From positions 1 through 20,836 of IMG/VR virus record IMGVR_UViG_3300037264_005451: 20,836 bases of DNA. The stretch is one strand, 5' to 3'. The translations under genes were made by a program, and so were the position numbers. This DNA comes from a virus. Shown in pieces: positions 5,395 to 15,113 of the stretch (the first letter of the stretch is position 1; each line of letters begins with the position of its first letter). The notes beneath the pieces were generated by a model. The model was not told the DNA's origin, made no database searches, and worked only from the letters and a program-made list of their open reading frames with translations.

Positions 5395-6162
5395 TCACTT
5401 CTGAGCTGGCTCGTCCCACTTCACTGGGTAACCGACTTGCTCGAGCAACTCGAGGGCACGAAGCTCGATCGCTCCCTCGGTGTTGTCGGCAGCAGCGATC
5501 TTGGTGCTGTCCTTGGCCCCAAGCACGAAGAGGGCATCTAGCCTCTGCTTGCACTCGTCACCAGGGAAGCCAGATGCAGCCGCCTTCTCGATCGCCTTCT
5601 TGGCAGCAAGCTCATCAATGGCACTTGCCGCCTTGGTGAACTTGGCCGGAACCTGGACACCGGGCTGAGTTGCAGAAGCTTCCTTCTGCTTCGCGGCTTC
5701 CTTCTCCATGGCCTCGCCGATCAGGCCGAGCTCTTGGGTGAAGGAGTGCGCGATGACACGACCGAGGTAGTCAGCCTCAGCGAGCTTCGCCTGGGCTTCC
5801 TTGGTCTTCTCAAATTCGCGGGCAGCGGCTTCCTTCTTCTCCTCTTCCTTCTTCTCTTCGTCCTTCTTCTCTTCGCCGCCGTTGCCCTTCTGGAACTGCG
5901 GTGGAACTGCCCCACCACCGTTGCCCTCAGGCTTCTTCTCTTCCTCCGGCTTCTTCTCCTCATCCTCTGCGGACTTGTTGAAGGTAGCCTCATAGAGCTG
6001 AGTGACCTGTTCGTCACTCAACCTGTTGAGGTCGATGCCATTGTCAGCTGCGAGCTTAGCGAAGAGCTCTGACTCTGCAGCCTTGGTCATGTCTTCTTGC
6101 GTGGGTCCACCGGGCGTGCCGTACATTGCAGCCAGGTCTATTCTCATCGTGGGAGCACTCAT
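5395..6162 (-). CDS. Putative scaffolding protein, highly charged, 255 aa
   Basis: A 255-residue protein starting at ATG 6160-6162 after a GGAGG site. Residues 1-60 are helical. Residues 65-125 are an extreme Glu/Lys low-complexity block (EEKKDEEKKEEEKKEAAARE) interrupted by Gly/Asn patches, and the C-terminal half is Ala-rich and helical. Highly charged helical proteins encoded just downstream of the prohead protease are the usual scaffolds that guide capsid assembly and are later removed. Order here is protease, this gene, 488-aa protein, then capsid genes, which fits. No sequence motif proves it. Repeated KxA stretches (KEASATQ, TKAASAI) could be processing sites. Confidence 0.7.
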   Translation of the reverse strand: MSAPTMRIDLAAMYGTPGGPTQEDMTKAAESELFAKLAADNGIDLNRLSDEQVTQLYEATFNKSAEDEEKKPEEEKKPEGNGGGAVPPQFQKGNGGEEKKDEEKKEEEKKEAAAREFEKTKEAQAKLAEADYLGRVIAHSFTQELGLIGEAMEKEAAKQKEASATQPGVQVPAKFTKAASAIDELAAKKAIEKAAASGFPGDECKQRLDALFVLGAKDSTKIAAADNTEGAIELRALELLEQVGYPVKWDEPAQK

Positions 6163-8338: not shown

Positions 8339-9591
8339 CACGCACCCATCTGAAGTTGATACTGCCGCACCATGTACGGGTGAGTGTATGGGATGCGGCT
8401 CATCAGCATGTTCTTGCCTGCTTGGAAGGCTGGGCTGTACTTCATGCGCTGATACACATCCTCTGCTGCTACACCAGCTGCGATGTGCGGAGCGTACTCG
8501 ACTCCTTTACCCACAACTTTACCGACGGTGCCACCACCAAGAGCTTCGGCGACCTCAGGAGCGAGCGCCTTCGTCCCCTCCGTAGCCGCCTTCCAAACTT
8601 TTGGGACAGATTCGATTGCCTTTCCCACAGTGCTACCAACGGCTTTGGCAGCTACGCTTGCGGCAAGCTTGTTGTTTGCCTGCTTGAGGAAAGTGTTCAA
8701 GGTGTCGACGCCCGAAGCGAGCTCTTCGGAGACGGCACGGATCTGAGCCATCTTCAAAAGGTTGTCGCAGAAATCAGCGTAGCTCTTGACGAGTGGATGC
8801 TCGACGTTGACAGTGCCGGCGGACGCAGTCTTCTCGATGGAGTTCGCGATCGAGAGCTTGTCCCCGAAGACCTTGTTCTCCAGCAGCTTCGGCGCGAGGA
8901 ACTGAAAAGCCACCTTCACGAAAGCGGGGTCGATCGTTATGGTGTGCCAAGCCTTGAGTACATCCCCGAGCGGTACTCCCTCGAGTGACGCTTGCTTCAC
9001 CTGCTGAAACATCTTGTTACAGACATCGAGATGAACTGACTCGAGCAAGCTGAGCTCACTTGTGAGCTCAGAGTGTGCTCCAGCGAGCTTCTGCTTCAGC
9101 GCCCAGGCATCCTGCAGTGGGTCGGAATACGGGATTTCCGACCCTGTCAAACCGAACGCCTCGGCAAGCTTGTCTTCCATCACTCCGAGTCGGTTTCTGT
9201 TCACCGCTGCGGTCTTGACCACATCCGGTGGTGGACGAGAGTAGTCCCCATCACCTCGGTCGAAGACGGTGCCGCCACCGCCATCGTTCAGATCTTTGAG
9301 GATCAACGACGGGTCGGCTGGGCCACCAGTGAACTCGATGACCCTGTGGTCCGAACCTTCCTTGCGGAACTCCTGCAAGTAGGCATCCGTATTGGCGAAC
9401 TCGACGACTCTCCTCACCTGTTCTGGGGATAGCCCAGCCTTCTTCACAGTCTCGACGACCGCATTGGTGAGATTCATCTGTCCGGATAGGTAAAGGGCAG
9501 CTGCCTGCTTGCCCAGGGTCTCGAGTTCCTCTCCAGTCTTCGGTTTTGCGCTCGATTGCTGGATGAGGGTCACGGAGGGCAGATCGTTCAT
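8338..9591 (-). CDS. Unknown 417-aa virion-type protein
   Basis: The protein starts at ATG 9589-9591 after a strong AGGAGG site. The N-terminal 80 residues are helical, followed by a Gly/Asp-rich turn region (NDGGGGTVFDRGDGDY, around 103-118). The remainder is mainly helical, with Ala/Val/Gly-rich stretches near 305-375 and a basic, Tyr-rich end (RIPYTHPYMVRQYQLQMGA). KTAAV, KQASL and KTASAG stretches recur as in neighbouring head proteins. It occupies the slot after the terminase where a portal is often found, but neither length nor sequence resembles a portal. It is the first minus-strand gene after the plus-strand helix-turn-helix gene. Function unknown. Confidence 0.82.
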   Translation of the reverse strand: MNDLPSVTLIQQSSAKPKTGEELETLGKQAAALYLSGQMNLTNAVVETVKKAGLSPEQVRRVVEFANTDAYLQEFRKEGSDHRVIEFTGGPADPSLILKDLNDGGGGTVFDRGDGDYSRPPPDVVKTAAVNRNRLGVMEDKLAEAFGLTGSEIPYSDPLQDAWALKQKLAGAHSELTSELSLLESVHLDVCNKMFQQVKQASLEGVPLGDVLKAWHTITIDPAFVKVAFQFLAPKLLENKVFGDKLSIANSIEKTASAGTVNVEHPLVKSYADFCDNLLKMAQIRAVSEELASGVDTLNTFLKQANNKLAASVAAKAVGSTVGKAIESVPKVWKAATEGTKALAPEVAEALGGGTVGKVVGKGVEYAPHIAAGVAAEDVYQRMKYSPAFQAGKNMLMSRIPYTHPYMVRQYQLQMGA

Positions 9592-9630
9592 GTGGTCCTC
9601 CTGCTAGAGATTACTCGCGGTTTCGGCTAC

Positions 9631-10359
9631 ATGAGAAGCGTGGATGAACTACTGACGACATCCCAGGCCTCCAAAATCCTTGGAGTTACGGTCAAACAGG
9701 TAAGGAACCTGATCAACCGTGGGGTGCTGATTGCACAGAGCCGAGAGGGCAAGACTGCCACATCCACGTTTCATGTTCGACTCTCGGACGTCCTTATCGC
9801 CAAAGGGACCAGGAGAAGGAGAGCCGGCAGGAAGCTGAGCGGCTACGACGCAGCCCTCATGGCGAAGCAAGCCTTCGCTGAGGTGAGGGCCATGCGCTCT
9901 GAATTCGAGAGACTGAAGTTCGGGATGGGCCTGCGTATCCAGGGACTCGACTTCAGCGAGCTCGGAGTTCAAGAAGTACTGGCCAAGATCGAGCACGCTC
10001 TGACCGAGATACCTCGTGCTCTCACGCCTTTTGAAGTGTGGCAGTGGGCTCGTCTTTTCTACTCCATCGGTGAAGAGTACTTCGAGATTGTGGAGCAGCA
10101 TACCGGTGACAAGGAGCCGTGGAAGAACTTCTTGGCCCTTGGTCAAAAGCTAGTGAAAGAAGCGCCCAGGTTCTACGACAAGGAGATCGAGATGGCGTAC
10201 GGATTCCTCGCTCTCAGCCGAACCATCATGCGTCAGGCCGCCTTCTTCTACGTCAGGAACAAGTATGGTCGGCGCGTCTCCGGCAAGATGTTCCCAGAGA
10301 CTGCGGATGAGATCGTATCTCCCGTCATCCTCATGGCCTACAACAACTTTCAGCCCTGA
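9631..10359 (+). CDS. Helix-turn-helix DNA-binding protein on the opposite strand, 242 aa
   Basis: One of only two plus-strand genes supported here. Residues 5-35 (LLTTSQASKILGVTVKQVRN) form a winged-helix/MerR-excisionase type helix-turn-helix that should bind DNA, followed by a basic patch (KGTRRRRAGRK). The C-terminal 160 residues are an unassigned helical domain with many aromatic residues. The start is set at ATG 9631-9633 because homology to helix-turn-helix proteins begins there; GTG 9640 is an alternative and neither has a clear ribosome binding site. It diverges from the 417-aa gene across 39 bases and its end overlaps the HNH gene end by ten bases. Possible roles are transcription regulation or DNA-site recognition during packaging; neither is shown. 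Confidence 0.82.
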   Translation: MRSVDELLTTSQASKILGVTVKQVRNLINRGVLIAQSREGKTATSTFHVRLSDVLIAKGTRRRRAGRKLSGYDAALMAKQAFAEVRAMRSEFERLKFGMGLRIQGLDFSELGVQEVLAKIEHALTEIPRALTPFEVWQWARLFYSIGEEYFEIVEQHTGDKEPWKNFLALGQKLVKEAPRFYDKEIEMAYGFLALSRTIMRQAAFFYVRNKYGRRVSGKMFPETADEIVSPVILMAYNNFQP

Positions 10360-10913
10360 TGCAAATGCTTCCACTTGTGCCCACGTAAAAGCTTGTTCAA
10401 ATACACGGGATGGAGACCGAAGCGCGAGGCCAACTCTCTCTGGGTGTATTTACCAGATTGACTCATCTTGAACAGTTTCAGCACGCTCTTCTCGGTAAGC
10501 TTCGCCCTCCCATGCTGTTCACCATAAGCTTTATTTGCACGCTCCTTACTAAACATGTCATCGACGTTGTCTTGATGCGTGCCAAGAAAGAGATGATCCG
10601 GCCGCACACAAGGGGGGTTGTCACACTTATGGAGCACAAGCAACCCATTAGGAACTGGACCATTGTGCATCTCCCACGACAATCGATGGACAAGAACACG
10701 CTCTCTACTTTTCTCTCTTCTGACTCGAGCATAGCCGCCTTTGTGTAGAGTGCTTTGCCACTCCCAACAACCAGCGCTTTTCTTCACACGAGTCCAAAAA
10801 CGATCGTCGTATGAACCACGACGTGTTTCAGCACACTCATCCGAGCAAGTAACTCTACCTTCGTAGTTAGCTACGAAGTGTTTCTTGCAAACCGGACATC
10901 TTAACCTTATCAT
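10350..10913 (-). CDS. Free-standing HNH homing endonuclease, 187 aa
   Basis: The protein begins MIRLRCPVCKKHF at ATG 10911-10913, just after the terminase stop. It has a zinc ribbon (Cys6, Cys9, Cys23, Cys27), an HNH nuclease core (VHRLSW around 76-81, then LHKCDNPPCVRPDHLFLGTH, 94-113) and a C-terminal helix-turn-helix (YTQRELASRFGLHPVYLNKL, 156-175). Such enzymes nick or cut allelic sites lacking the gene, so that repair copies it in. No ribosome binding site precedes the ATG; instead the start lies in a hairpin next to a promoter. Base composition is lower in GC than neighbouring structural genes (27 of 60 at 10501-10560). All predicted metal and catalytic ligands are present, so it is probably active. 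Confidence 0.88.
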   Translation of the reverse strand: MIRLRCPVCKKHFVANYEGRVTCSDECAETRRGSYDDRFWTRVKKSAGCWEWQSTLHKGGYARVRREKSRERVLVHRLSWEMHNGPVPNGLLVLHKCDNPPCVRPDHLFLGTHQDNVDDMFSKERANKAYGEQHGRAKLTEKSVLKLFKMSQSGKYTQRELASRFGLHPVYLNKLLRGHKWKHLHQG

Positions 10914-10939
10914 GTGGACCACTATAACATGGCCACATG
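10911..10939 (-). promoter_or_regulatory. Hairpin sequestering the HNH start codon
   Basis: Read-through terminase RNA can pair CATGTGGCCA with TGG(T)CCACATG, a 10-bp stem with one bulged base and an 8-base loop. The 3' arm contains the HNH ATG. RNA started at the internal promoter would lack the 5' arm and so expose the start codon. Confidence 0.6.
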
Positions 10940-10949
10940 TCAAGGTCAA
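10921..10949 (-). promoter_or_regulatory. Sigma70-type promoter for the HNH gene
   Basis: On the minus strand TTGACC (10944-10949) and TATAGT (10921-10926) are separated by exactly 17 bases, each one mismatch from the consensus elements. The -35 box overlaps the terminase TGA stop (10946-10948). Transcription would begin near 10913-10915, giving an almost leaderless HNH transcript. The match is seen in sequence; activity is inferred. Confidence 0.65.
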
Positions 10950-13900
10950 CCTTGGTCGATAGGACCTTGATATGTACCAACCATCCGTCCATCGACCTCC
11001 TTCATCGGAGCGACGATGTCTGCTCTCGGGATGATGAGCATCGAGGCGATCCAACAATACAGTAGTGAATGAAAGGCGTCGTCCGGCTTGTCCTGGCCGT
11101 GCATGTACTGAACCATCCTGAGTGACTCGTTGTACTCACTGTAAATGTTCAGCATGTCAGTAGCGTATGGATCTGAAAACTCATTCCACTTTGGGAACTC
11201 ACACTTCTTTCGCTTGATGGCATTGAAGATGTCGCTCATCACCTCGGTGCGATGAGTTTTCCATCGACGTAGCCTCACATCCCATTCGAGTTTCTTCTTA
11301 GCACGAGCCATGTACTGATACTTAACGATGCGCTCAGGACCGAAGACTCGAACCAGGTGATCGTTTCTATCGAAGCCACCACCATAATCGGTTCCGATCA
11401 CACGAACGTTGAAGTACTTCAGGAGTTCCACGATTCTCTCTAACTGAATCGGCGGATCTACTTCCTCACCAACGAAACGGTGGACGTAGAAGACTCTGAA
11501 CTTCATGTCTACATACGTAGCCAGCGTGATGACTGAATATGAATTTTCACCAGTATTACCTTGGTAAGAGATACACCCATTCCGCTCGGTGACGATATAA
11601 CCACTAGGTACTGCGCAGCAGTAGACCTTCCCCTTGTATGGAACTTTCTTAACCTTCGCGTTAGACATGTTGAAGGCATAATCTCGTCCTGCAGACCATA
11701 GTGCCCGCCATCGAGTTTTGCGCATTCCACTAGCTGGTTTGTGAAGCCGAACAATGCAGCGAAGCCCGAGCTTGATACAGATTTCTTGAAAGTCTTCGCA
11801 GAGACCTTTCGAGGTGGAGTAGTACGCCCCACCAGTGCAGTTGTCTCGTGGGTCGATATAGCCATCCCCCAGTAGCATTGCCTCGAAGAGAATGCGGAGT
11901 TGCCGCTTACCAAGCAACAGCATCCAACGAGGAAGCCTTTTCACGTCTCCTGTCATGCCCATGTTCTTCGAAAACCAATCCCAATACTGCTTACCGCAAA
12001 TAGTCCAATTTACATCCCCCGTCTTGGGATTGGGGAACTCGGAGAAGGGAACATCCAAACGGACCATACAATCACGAATCTTCTGATACCGATCTGGACT
12101 CACCGATGCTCGCTGCGACATCTTGAGGCAGTAGGGCACAAGCTCTCCTGCCTTGTTCTTTTTCAAGCAGACGCCGCCTTCAGTAATCATGTAGCCGAAG
12201 AATTCGATCCAATCGTCAGCATTGAATTGCCTTGGCTCGCAGCCTGAATAACCAGGACTCTTCGGCAATCCAGGCAACCCAAACCAAGTAATGTCCCTAC
12301 CCTTCCAATCTACATAACCAACAAACTTAACATTGCCGCGTTCCGCCGTTTCACTAGAAACCTCTGTTGTCCACTTGTCACCTTGTGGAGGAATCACACG
12401 CATTCGATGCGTGTGAGTTACCATCAAGTCCAGCCCTCCCTTAGTCTCAAAATGAAGAAGAGGTTGATCCCAATCACGCACTGTACGAACCATAGGTTTA
12501 GTAAGCGTCATCTCTCTAGTATCTGGATCCCACTGCATAACCTCATCTTCATCAGTAACATCTCGGAAGTACTTGAACCCATCTTTGGTGAGAATACGAG
12601 TATCTTCGTCGTGGCATCCCCAATCGATACCAGCGAAGATGGGCTGACCGAACGACAGCGGTCTGTACTTCTCGATGTCATACATCGACAGGTCCGGATT
12701 GCAGCACTCGAAGACTTGTCTCATAGTCAACGGTCGCATACCGCTGTCGTAGGAGATGCCTAGCACCTCGTTGTAGAACTTGTCTCTAGGATAGCCGTCG
12801 TACTGCTGCAGAACCTCGAGCCATGGCTTCCATGGAACCATCAGCTGACTGATACGAAAGCTCTCGAAGTAAGCCTTCTCCTGATCGAACTTCACCATGC
12901 GGGCCCAGCAAGATTCCACGTGCATGGGATTGATCAGAGTGTGGCACTTCTCACAGACGAGTCCCTTCTTACCGATGTTCTTCTCACCGAGGACGTTCCA
13001 GTATCGGCCTGCACCTTCAGTCGTACTCTTCATCCCACAGGCATCACACGGAACTACCCACTCGTTTTGGGTAGATCTCCTAGCTCTGTAGTACTCGATG
13101 TTGTTGTCGAGGCTCTTCGGGGTGCCGGAGTAGATGTACCGCTTCCAGATGGGTGGAGCGTGAGACAGACACTGCTCGATAATTGGAATGTTATCAGAAA
13201 GGATATCCTGAAACTCGTCGATCTCCAGGAGCCAAGCTGGAATTCCGCGGCACCGGTCTGCATTCAAGAAGGCATATCGAATGGTGAGCTTTGACCTGTT
13301 GATGAACTGTTTCTCGAGGATGTTGCTCGATAGCATCTTAGTTGTAAACTTCTTGAGTACGTTGCTAGTTTCGACTGGCTCTTTGATACGATCGTTCGAG
13401 AATGTAGTCGACTGTGTTGCAGAAGGACTAACGTAGAGCACCTTGTAAGCCGGCACGAGACACATGTACCCAAGCGCTATGTTGCCGAGCAGAGTCGAGT
13501 TGTGGGTAACGAGCCCCTCGGCCACAAAGTTGTGCGTTCCTGCTACCTCGAAGTCTATGCAAGTCTGTACCCCAGCATCCTTGATGGAAACAATCTCATC
13601 CCAATAGAGGTCGGTGGAGAGCAGCTCTTCTAACTGATTCACTAGCTGCTGGTCATATCGTTCATCGGAACGGAAGAACGCCACGTACTGCTGAACCTTT
13701 CCCATCGTAGGTGGGTACTTAAGCGTCTCACGCAACCCAGCTGTCCGAAGGCTCTTTCCACTCTCAGCCTGACAGCCCCTACGGCCCTCATCGCCGCGGG
13801 AACCGATGATCTGTCGAACGAGGTCATTCACCTCTTCCGGAAAGGTGTCACGGTTGTTGTTCGACACGAGTTCCGAAGCGAATACGTCCTCGCTCTTTCC

Positions 13901-15079
13901 CAGCGCCCCAACATCAGTGAGGAAGCGGCGCACACCTTCTTGTGTCTCGACCCGCACAATGTAGGCAAGCTTCTTCTCTCCACGACGCTTATAGATGCTT
14001 GGCCAGTTCTTACGAATCTTCGATGGGATACCGAACTTCCAGAGGAGGGCCTGCACCTCCTGCGCGAGAATCTTCGAAATGGAACAGTACTCAATACTGT
14101 ACTTGGAAAGCCCATTCCTCTTCACATGGCCATCAGTGGACCAGAGACGGTTCAAGAAGAGTGAGGTCTGCCTTTGATCGAGATCAAAAACCCAATTGGG
14201 CACGTACTTATTGCCAGAGAGCCGTCCGACAAGACCGTCTACCATCATCCAGGCACGGACCGATCCGTTCTCGTGAAGACGGACTTGGAGCGCCTGCCCC
14301 TTCGTCTTCGAGACGCAGTAGGTACCACCAGAGAGCCCCACATCGGAGAGGAACTCATCAAGCTTGGCGCCAGGCATAGAGGTAAAGCCGATGTACTTCT
14401 TGCCTATGTGGCCATCACCAAGAAGGTAAGCAGTAAGACGAACTCGCTCGTCGGAAACGCCGCCCTTCCCAAAGACGCCAGCTTTCCTAACTGCGGCGAG
14501 GCGGTCCCCCACCTTGAGTGCTGCGCCCTCAACCCACTTCCCCCAGAGGCGCATGGGATGGGTGAGAGCAATAGTCAGTACATGGCCCTGCCGTGTCGTG
14601 ATCTTGATGCAGGGCTTGTCGTAGAATTTCGAGACCCAGGTCACCCTGCCAGTCGTTGTGTGGACACCGCCTGCAGATATCGTCGCCAGCTCATCTCCAA
14701 TCCTGACGTGCTCGGCAAAGATGAGACGGCCATTTGCAAGACTCACCAATGACTTCACCCACAGGGTCTTCTCAACTTGGCGTCCGCAGATGAGCAAGAT
14801 ATGCTTCGCTGGTGAGTCATAGATCGCTCGCATGTGAGGGCGACCACCAAACGAGAAGTTATCGTAGCCCTGCCCATCATCTTTGGGCATCCTGAATGCG
14901 AACTCCGTGAACTCGCTGGGCTTAACTGCGTTCTTGAACTTAGGCAGTCGCTTATCTACATCGGCGAATACAATTGGATCTTCGAACAGTTCAGGTTCTG
15001 GTTTCCAGATCTCCCGCTCTGATAGTGCGTCGTCACCAAAGGGATTCTGGTAAGACAGATTGATATTAGGCTCACCCAT
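10946..15079 (-). CDS. terL: Terminase large subunit precursor with two inteins
   Basis: The ATP-driven motor and nuclease that packages DNA into the prohead. The precursor is 1377 aa; after removal of inteins of 423 and 354 aa it is 600 aa, normal for the family. In spliced numbering: Walker A GRQVEKS (99-105), Walker B LLEIDE (194-199), SGTP coupling motif (228-231), a Cys4 zinc ribbon (255, 258, 286, 289), and the RNase H-like nuclease acids Asp396 (DWG), Asp454 (GTDYG) and Asp556/557 (PDDAFHS). Start ATG 15077-15079 is chosen because AGGTGG lies just upstream; an in-frame ATG-type extension to 15112 lacks this. The Walker A Gly before Lys is replaced by Glu. Both inteins interrupt active-site motifs, so unspliced protein should be inactive. 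Confidence 0.93.
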   Translation of the reverse strand: MGEPNINLSYQNPFGDDALSEREIWKPEPELFEDPIVFADVDKRLPKFKNAVKPSEFTEFAFRMPKDDGQGYDNFSFGGRPHMRAIYDSPAKHILLICGRQVEKTLWVKSLVSLANGRLIFAEHVRIGDELATISAGGVHTTTGRVTWVSKFYDKPCIKITTRQGHVLTIALTHPMRLWGKWVEGAALKVGDRLAAVRKAGVFGKGGVSDERVRLTAYLLGDGHIGKKYIGFTSMPGAKLDEFLSDVGLSGGTYCVSKTKGQALQVRLHENGSVRAWMMVDGLVGRLSGNKYVPNWVFDLDQRQTSLFLNRLWSTDGHVKRNGLSKYSIEYCSISKILAQEVQALLWKFGIPSKIRKNWPSIYKRRGEKKLAYIVRVETQEGVRRFLTDVGALGKSEDVFASELVSNNNRDTFPEEVNDLVRQIIGSRGDEGRRGCQAESGKSLRTAGLRETLKYPPTMGKVQQYVAFFRSDERYDQQLVNQLEELLSTDLYWDEIVSIKDAGVQTCIDFEVAGTHNFVAEGLVTHNSTLLGNIALGYMCLVPAYKVLYVSPSATQSTTFSNDRIKEPVETSNVLKKFTTKMLSSNILEKQFINRSKLTIRYAFLNADRCRGIPAWLLEIDEFQDILSDNIPIIEQCLSHAPPIWKRYIYSGTPKSLDNNIEYYRARRSTQNEWVVPCDACGMKSTTEGAGRYWNVLGEKNIGKKGLVCEKCHTLINPMHVESCWARMVKFDQEKAYFESFRISQLMVPWKPWLEVLQQYDGYPRDKFYNEVLGISYDSGMRPLTMRQVFECCNPDLSMYDIEKYRPLSFGQPIFAGIDWGCHDEDTRILTKDGFKYFRDVTDEDEVMQWDPDTREMTLTKPMVRTVRDWDQPLLHFETKGGLDLMVTHTHRMRVIPPQGDKWTTEVSSETAERGNVKFVGYVDWKGRDITWFGLPGLPKSPGYSGCEPRQFNADDWIEFFGYMITEGGVCLKKNKAGELVPYCLKMSQRASVSPDRYQKIRDCMVRLDVPFSEFPNPKTGDVNWTICGKQYWDWFSKNMGMTGDVKRLPRWMLLLGKRQLRILFEAMLLGDGYIDPRDNCTGGAYYSTSKGLCEDFQEICIKLGLRCIVRLHKPASGMRKTRWRALWSAGRDYAFNMSNAKVKKVPYKGKVYCCAVPSGYIVTERNGCISYQGNTGENSYSVITLATYVDMKFRVFYVHRFVGEEVDPPIQLERIVELLKYFNVRVIGTDYGGGFDRNDHLVRVFGPERIVKYQYMARAKKKLEWDVRLRRWKTHRTEVMSDIFNAIKRKKCEFPKWNEFSDPYATDMLNIYSEYNESLRMVQYMHGQDKPDDAFHSLLYCWIASMLIIPRADIVAPMKEVDGRMVGTYQGPIDQG
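11555..12616 (-). mobile_element. Intein 2 (354 aa) in the terminase nuclease motif, with LAGLIDADG endonuclease
   Basis: This is inserted after Gly of IDWG|TGENSYSV, next to the first catalytic Asp of the nuclease domain. It starts with Cys1 (CHDEDTRILTKDG), has a canonical block B THTH (67-70), and LAGLIDADG motifs FFGYMITEGG (139-148, Glu146) and FEAMLLGDGY (244-253, Asp251). The C-terminus reads VYCCAVPSGY (331-340) then GCISYQGN before +1 Thr: the block F Asp position holds Cys and the penultimate residue is Gly instead of His. Base composition looks lower in GC than the capsid genes (26 of 60 at 12301-12360). Splicing must occur for the nuclease to form. Confidence 0.9.
13499..14767 (-). 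mobile_element. Intein 1 (423 aa) in the terminase Walker A motif, with LAGLIDADG endonuclease
   Basis: This is inserted between Lys and Ser of GRQVEK|S. It starts TLWVKSLVSLANGR and ends FVAEGLVTHN before +1 Ser. Block F (CIDFEVAGTHNF, 403-414) and block G (VTHN with penultimate His and terminal Asn) are canonical. The first residue is Thr where Cys or Ser is usual, and block B (IALTHPM, 66-72) has its His but Ala at the usual Thr position. LAGLIDADG motifs are LTAYLLGDGH (111-120, Asp118) and FLNRLWSTDGH (204-214, Asp212), both with intact acidic residues, so homing activity is plausible. Boundaries follow from the rebuilt Walker A sequence and from block alignment. Splicing efficiency with Thr1 is uncertain. 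Confidence 0.88.
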
Positions 15080-15113
15080 GTTTCCACCTGAGCCCACGAG
15101 CAACGTCCACACG

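Follow-up and report, generated by a model that had tools for sequence, protein, structure and literature searches.

Behind the terminase large subunit gene of an uncultured phage lies an HNH endonuclease gene that we read, with fair confidence, as a mobile cassette. It would be expressed from a leaderless promoter of its own, and in some lineages a hairpin would keep read-through RNA silent. The cassette would have inserted between the terminase gene and a convergent downstream gene and brought along a σ70-like promoter, from which transcription would start on the HNH ATG or no more than two bases away from it. The resulting HNH mRNA would be leaderless and without a Shine–Dalgarno (SD) sequence. 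In the lineage studied here and at least one other, read-through terminase RNA would fold into a hairpin pairing or enclosing the ATG, and the endonuclease would then be translated from its own promoter only.

The window is a 20.8-kb virus record (IMGVR_UViG_3300037264_005451, 20,836 nt); L numbers denote comparison loci and G numbers phage records. Its relevant features are as follows.

10946–15112, minus strand: gene for the terminase large subunit, interrupted by two inteins; ends in stop codon 10948–10946, likely start ATG 15079; possible source of read-through RNA
10350–10913, minus strand: HNH endonuclease gene, 187 aa; ATG 10913–10911, stop 10352–10350; Pfam HNH_3
9556–10359, plus strand: MerR-like/terminase-small-subunit-like gene, convergent with the HNH gene and ending at 10359
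10944–10949, minus strand: −35 element TTGACC, read from the sequence; overlaps the terminase stop codon and the outer 5′ hairpin arm
10921–10926, minus strand: −10 element TATAGT, read from the sequence; preceded by TGT (extended −10), with TATA in the hairpin loop
10911–10914, minus strand: predicted transcription start, 10914 or 10913, at the HNH ATG; placed by the −10 spacing, the start codon being backed by homologs with forced starts
10901–10949, minus strand: predicted 20-bp hairpin; outer helix 10949–10941/10909–10901, core 10939–10929/10922–10911, loop 10928–10923

The HNH protein has an N-terminal zinc finger and a C-terminal HTH-like match, scores 60.9 bits against HNH_3 (PF13392; curated cut-off 24.8) and also matches PHROG HNH endonuclease families. 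In the window, 32 nt lie between the terminase stop and the HNH ATG, and no intrinsic terminator was seen in the sequence between the two genes.

Promoter geometry at the HNH start codon

The window promoter has a 17-bp spacer, a TG one base before the −10 and 7 nt between the −10 and the HNH ATG. TTGACC-17-TATAGT is the sole σ70 match of at least 10/12 on either strand of the window. Shuffled versions of the window contain 1.45 such matches on average, so the number of sites is not above chance, but the position is: among 678 window ATGs, the HNH ATG alone reaches this promoter score 4–8 nt upstream. Recognition of E. coli-type promoters by the host, and its tolerance of leaderless messages, are assumed. 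An earlier note had placed this promoter inside an inverted repeat with the HNH ATG in the 3′ arm, and both the arrangement and its coordinates are confirmed. Its description of a σ70-type rather than a late phage promoter, with no SD, is likewise borne out (−35 and −10 present; no SD match of at least 4 nt).

The terminase belongs to an uncultured clade with related contigs of up to 194 kb. A DNA search of phage records with the window gave no match, and a protein search returned distant terminases only, leaving the clade without close matches among deposited phages. Five distinct relatives besides the window carry the HNH gene directly behind the same terminase (L015, L086, L097, L111/L112 and L223), of which L223 turned up after the promoter pattern had been stated. 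The promoters of the six loci are given below.

Window: TTGACC-17-(TGT)TATAGT-7-ATG
L015: TAGCCC-17-(TGC)TATACT-6-ATG
L086: TTGACG-16-TAGTAT-5-ATG
L097: TTGACA-16-TAGAAT-6-ATG
L111: TTGACA-16-CATACT-7-ATG
L223: TGCACC-16-(TGC)TATAGC-6-ATG

With hexamers and the TG scored for promoter placement, the HNH ATG outscores every other ATG at each of the six loci (first of 678 in the window, 140 in L015, 181 in L086, 194 in L097, 221 in L111 and 119 in L223). The combined Fisher P of about 4 × 10−9 is bounded by the number of ATGs, and such P values are optimistic because the six loci are related and not fully independent. The TG term was added to the score after L015 and L223 were seen; both have a weak −35 together with an extended −10 TG. 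On hexamers alone L015 ranks third of 140 and L223 sixth of 119, and the first five loci give a Fisher P of 9 × 10−8. Within 45 nt upstream, the best promoter offset is 5–7 nt at every locus (7, 6, 5, 6, 7 and 6 in the order listed), inside the 5–8 nt taken here as leaderless spacing, and the arrangement persists across HNH identities of 41–56% (the L015 protein is 56% identical to that of the window). No SD match of at least 4 nt precedes the HNH ATG in the five loci scored (window, L015, L086, L097 and L111); in L223 a GGGG adjoins the ATG directly, a spacing too short for a normal SD. An in-frame stop just upstream in L086, L097, L111 and L223 makes the HNH ATG the sole plausible start. With the −10 ending 5–7 nt before the ATG in six of six loci, the comparison lends strong support to the internal promoter and near-leaderless message of the earlier note, the transcription start itself being predicted.

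A clade-wide gene property was rejected as the source of this pattern: control starts mostly have an SD (at least 4 nt in 56 of 67 'down' genes of the clade, and in most window genes), and the promoter is rare among them (2 of the 67 'down' genes reach a score of at least 8/12, as does 1 of 54 terminase starts). Nor is it a property of all HNH genes. The other HNH genes of the same genomes lack the promoter, and HNH homologs elsewhere mostly lack it too, many having an SD, with a few low-identity exceptions scoring at least 8 (L011 at 11/12, L159 and L043 at 9/12). A promoter already present in the empty site was mostly rejected as well, given that in the region after the terminase stop of 60 HNH-less relatives only L098 reaches 10/12. 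From the geometry at all six loci, set beside neighbours and many other HNH genes that have an SD and no promoter, we infer that the conserved feature is a host-type promoter giving a leaderless mRNA. It is quite probable that such a promoter is joined to the start codon throughout this HNH lineage and that expression proceeds from a leaderless message.

The distant HNH gene of L011, near position 5853 in an 86-kb phage, also has TTGACA-17-TATGAT-8-ATG. In L096 and L098, which are HNH-less and sister to L097/L111, TTGACC...TTGACACCCAAATAATACATG is kept in a 30-nt gap just after the terminase stop (3092) and resembles the HNH-bearing spacers; it may be the scar of a lost HNH gene or an ancestral spacer. 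TATAAT and TTGACA are scarce relative to dinucleotide shuffles across the whole records G010, G014, G015 and G016 (in G015, 3 TATAAT against 20), a depletion to which coding constraints may contribute and which is therefore not counted as main evidence. The best σ70 match of the 189-kb G015 is its HNH promoter.

Predicted hairpins over the start codon

The predicted window hairpin has a 6-nt loop (GTTATA) closed by an 11-bp core in which a single T is bulged, and an A·A mismatch separates this core from a 9-bp outer helix; the 10-bp stem of the earlier note was an undercount. Its predicted minimum free energy is −25.9 kcal/mol (51 nt), with a z-score of −4.9 against dinucleotide shuffles (fixed 50-nt interval); an equally good fold is reached at 0.3% of window positions. 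All three letters of the HNH ATG are paired, in the 3′ arm, and the terminase stop TGA falls within the outer part of the 5′ arm. In a 100-nt read-through fragment, the predicted pairing probability of the ATG is 1.0 and opening it costs 6.2 kcal/mol (P 0.015 against shuffles), compared with 0.2 kcal/mol in a message starting at the ATG. A transcript from the predicted start would exclude the 5′ arm from 10949 to 10929. A competing 13-nt inverted repeat (92%) sets 10935–10947, in the hairpin 5′ arm, against 10963–10975 in the upstream terminase coding sequence, and could form an alternative structure that frees the HNH ATG.

The hiding of the ATG on read-through RNA, as the earlier note proposed, is supported for part of the family. 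The initiation region is predicted to be hidden in the window, in L086 and, less strongly, in L015; the prediction is weak for L111 and negative for L097 and L223. L086 forms a different, equally strong predicted hairpin that encloses the ATG; its stem of 13 bp stands on a 5-bp base, and its z-score is −6.0. No other structure among 65 distinct terminase ends is as strong as those of the window and L086, and z-scores of −4 or below occur in 3 of the 60 HNH-less ends. Chance is an unlikely origin for these two hairpins.

L015 repeats the window architecture, with an 11-bp core, TATA in a 6-nt loop and an outer helix. Its ATG costs 4.3 kcal/mol to open (P 0.035), and the fold is moderately unusual (z −1.5 to −2.8); chance could still suffice here. 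When the register is anchored on the ATG and the bulged T of the window is removed by hand, all 10 compared core pairs are kept between the two loci and 4 have changed on both sides. The window and L015 pairs thus covary, which the earlier note had suggested checking at homologous loci, but with two sequences only, four compensatory changes are no more than a hint. In L111 an unremarkable 6-bp stem, likely due to chance, covers the ATG, and fold predictions for L097 and L223 gave no hairpin of note. Its weakness or absence in these three loci indicates that the hairpin is not obligate and that the promoter can do without one. That the window hairpin silences read-through RNA is slightly more likely than not, given its fold statistics, the comparison with L015 and the separate hairpin of L086.

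Competing explanations and timing of expression

The leaderless promoter could be the whole story, with the window hairpin a by-product or weak and the lack of an SD alone isolating the HNH gene from terminase read-through. The promoter geometry is found in all six homologs, against a strong hairpin in two and a moderate one in a third. However, both of the strongest hairpins among the terminase ends belong to HNH-bearing phages, the window and L086 hairpins differ in sequence and position in a way that looks like repeated selection, and the window and L015 pairs covary; we consider a promoter acting alone unlikely, though a serious contender. The main mechanistic worry for silencing by the hairpin is coupling to terminase translation: with the terminase stop in the 5′ arm, terminating ribosomes would cover part of that arm and could open the hairpin and expose the ATG. 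In its full form, ribosomes ending at 10948–10946 would melt the hairpin and reinitiate at the HNH ATG from terminase mRNA, for which the stop in the outer arm and stop-to-ATG gaps of 29–59 nt can be cited. Gaps of this size are long for reinitiation, however, and they vary between loci; the scored HNH starts have no SD of at least 4 nt, and the promoter at each HNH ATG is left unexplained. Coupling therefore strikes us as highly improbable.

The inverted repeat might instead act in the DNA, as an operator over the promoter bound by the HNH protein itself, in autorepression as for I-TevI, or by another regulator. Dyad symmetry overlaps the promoter in both the window and L086, the HNH protein has its HTH-like match, and I-TevI autorepression is known (PMC2988022). 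Yet the centre of symmetry shifts relative to the −10 (the window loop lies on the −10, that of L086 in the spacer), and three homologs have no strong repeat, which leaves an operator improbable. A 3′-end hairpin or terminator of the terminase transcript, surviving as a relic of the ancestral gene junction, would agree with the hairpins after the terminase stop in a few HNH-less relatives (the 3 of 60 noted above), but no T-run follows the stem in the window or L086 and neither is called a terminator. An intrinsic terminator was rejected on this ground, and of all these explanations we give the relic the smallest chance.

For the mobile cassette with its own leaderless promoter, a host-type promoter, a packaging gene upstream that is normally late and the scarcity of consensus σ70 sites in the clade make early activity of the HNH promoter the simplest assumption. 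The hairpin would most naturally limit the endonuclease to early infection by muting it on late terminase transcripts, a timing opposite to that of T4 I-TevI. A more ambitious reading combines a portable leaderless host-type promoter on a mobile HNH family, start-codon hairpins that evolved repeatedly, and early expression with late switch-off, in effect a time-inverted, SD-free T4 switch. We offer it tentatively, at less than an even chance; if true, the portable promoter belongs to phage genomes in which promoters of this type are otherwise scarce. A promoter fused to the ATG would be a clean rule by which a mobile gene is expressed wherever it lands, without its neighbours' ribosome-binding sites, and the six loci provide natural variants with and without the hairpin for testing its purpose.

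Known systems and the terminase site

Transcribed from PRM, lambda cI gives a leaderless mRNA that begins at the AUG, with the −10 a few nucleotides before it; it differs from the window in having no hairpin switch and in being regulated by repressor. The promoter-in-hairpin principle is already known from T4-like phages. For T4 I-TevI, I-TevII, I-TevIII and segB and for Aeh1 mobE, the promoter's transcript lacks the 5′ half of a structure that hides the ribosome-binding site (PMC2988022, PMC3014915). The earlier note's analogy with I-TevI is apt, and a closer published case is mobE of phage Aeh1, which like the window gene is a free-standing HNH gene; its promoter is so placed that the 5′ arm of a hairpin blocking translation of longer RNA is left out of the transcript (PMC2988022). 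In contrast to the σ70-type promoter, absence of a clear SD and paired ATG of the window, mobE has a T4-type late promoter and a hidden ribosome-binding site, and it lies at nrdA rather than the terminase, so that the positions are not homologous. In the T4 I-Tev and segB genes read-through RNA is silenced by a hairpin within which the promoter lies (PMC2988022, PMC3014915), as proposed for the window, but they have an SD, the I-Tev enzymes are intron-encoded (segB is free-standing), and their middle or late promoters entail silencing early, whereas silencing in the window would most naturally be late.

Inhibitory structure at the initiation region of longer transcripts is also found in the leaders of T4 gene e (lysozyme), which has late promoters just upstream, and soc (PMC3014915), although these are SD-dependent and not selfish genes. 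The ShiLan-type HNH endonucleases hidden in mycobacteriophage methylases resemble the window gene in having no detectable ribosome-binding site, with leaderless initiation proposed, but they are internal out-of-frame ORFs for which no promoter is described (PMC11855218). The window HNH gene would work like the I-TevI/segB/mobE group, with a predicted transcript lacking the 5′ arm and a predicted hidden initiation region; it is not filed as a member, as it has neither a hidden SD nor a T4-type late promoter. The literature searched yielded no case that combines a σ70-type promoter, no clear SD, a hidden start codon and a terminase site. That such control should recur outside the T4-like phages, in an uncultured clade unrelated to them that has another promoter class and hides the start codon rather than an SD, suggests convergence of independent selfish genes.

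At the terminase site the HNH gene is sporadic, as is typical of free-standing homing endonucleases: six sites are occupied, while 60 distinct terminase ends lack the gene. On a terminase tree with the first five of the six carriers, its presence needs at least three gains or losses, as expected of a mobile gene. In relatives without it, the 3′ end of the convergent MerR-like gene abuts the terminase stop, and in most terminase relatives the convergent gene adjoins that stop or lies close by. Intein content differs as well: the window terminase (15112–10946) has two inteins, L015, L016 and L097 have the second only, and L086, L111 and L223 have none. The terminase is thus a hot spot at which different kinds of selfish element gather. 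At the same terminase/convergent-gene junction, L016 (6684–8840) carries about 2.1 kb of extra genes, including, by eye, a DNA adenine methylase-like ORF.

A search of genome contigs with the HNH protein found four loci, three matching the nuclease part at 33–39% and one matching the N terminus. G015 and G016, the phages of L097 and L111, have about ten HNH_3 genes each (11 and 10 matches), far above the other clade members searched. The HNH core reads CDNxxCVRPDHL in the window and L015 and CDVRxC(V/A)R-HL in L086, L097, L111 and L223; in the latter four the middle Asn is replaced and two residues are missing, and catalysis may be altered or lost.
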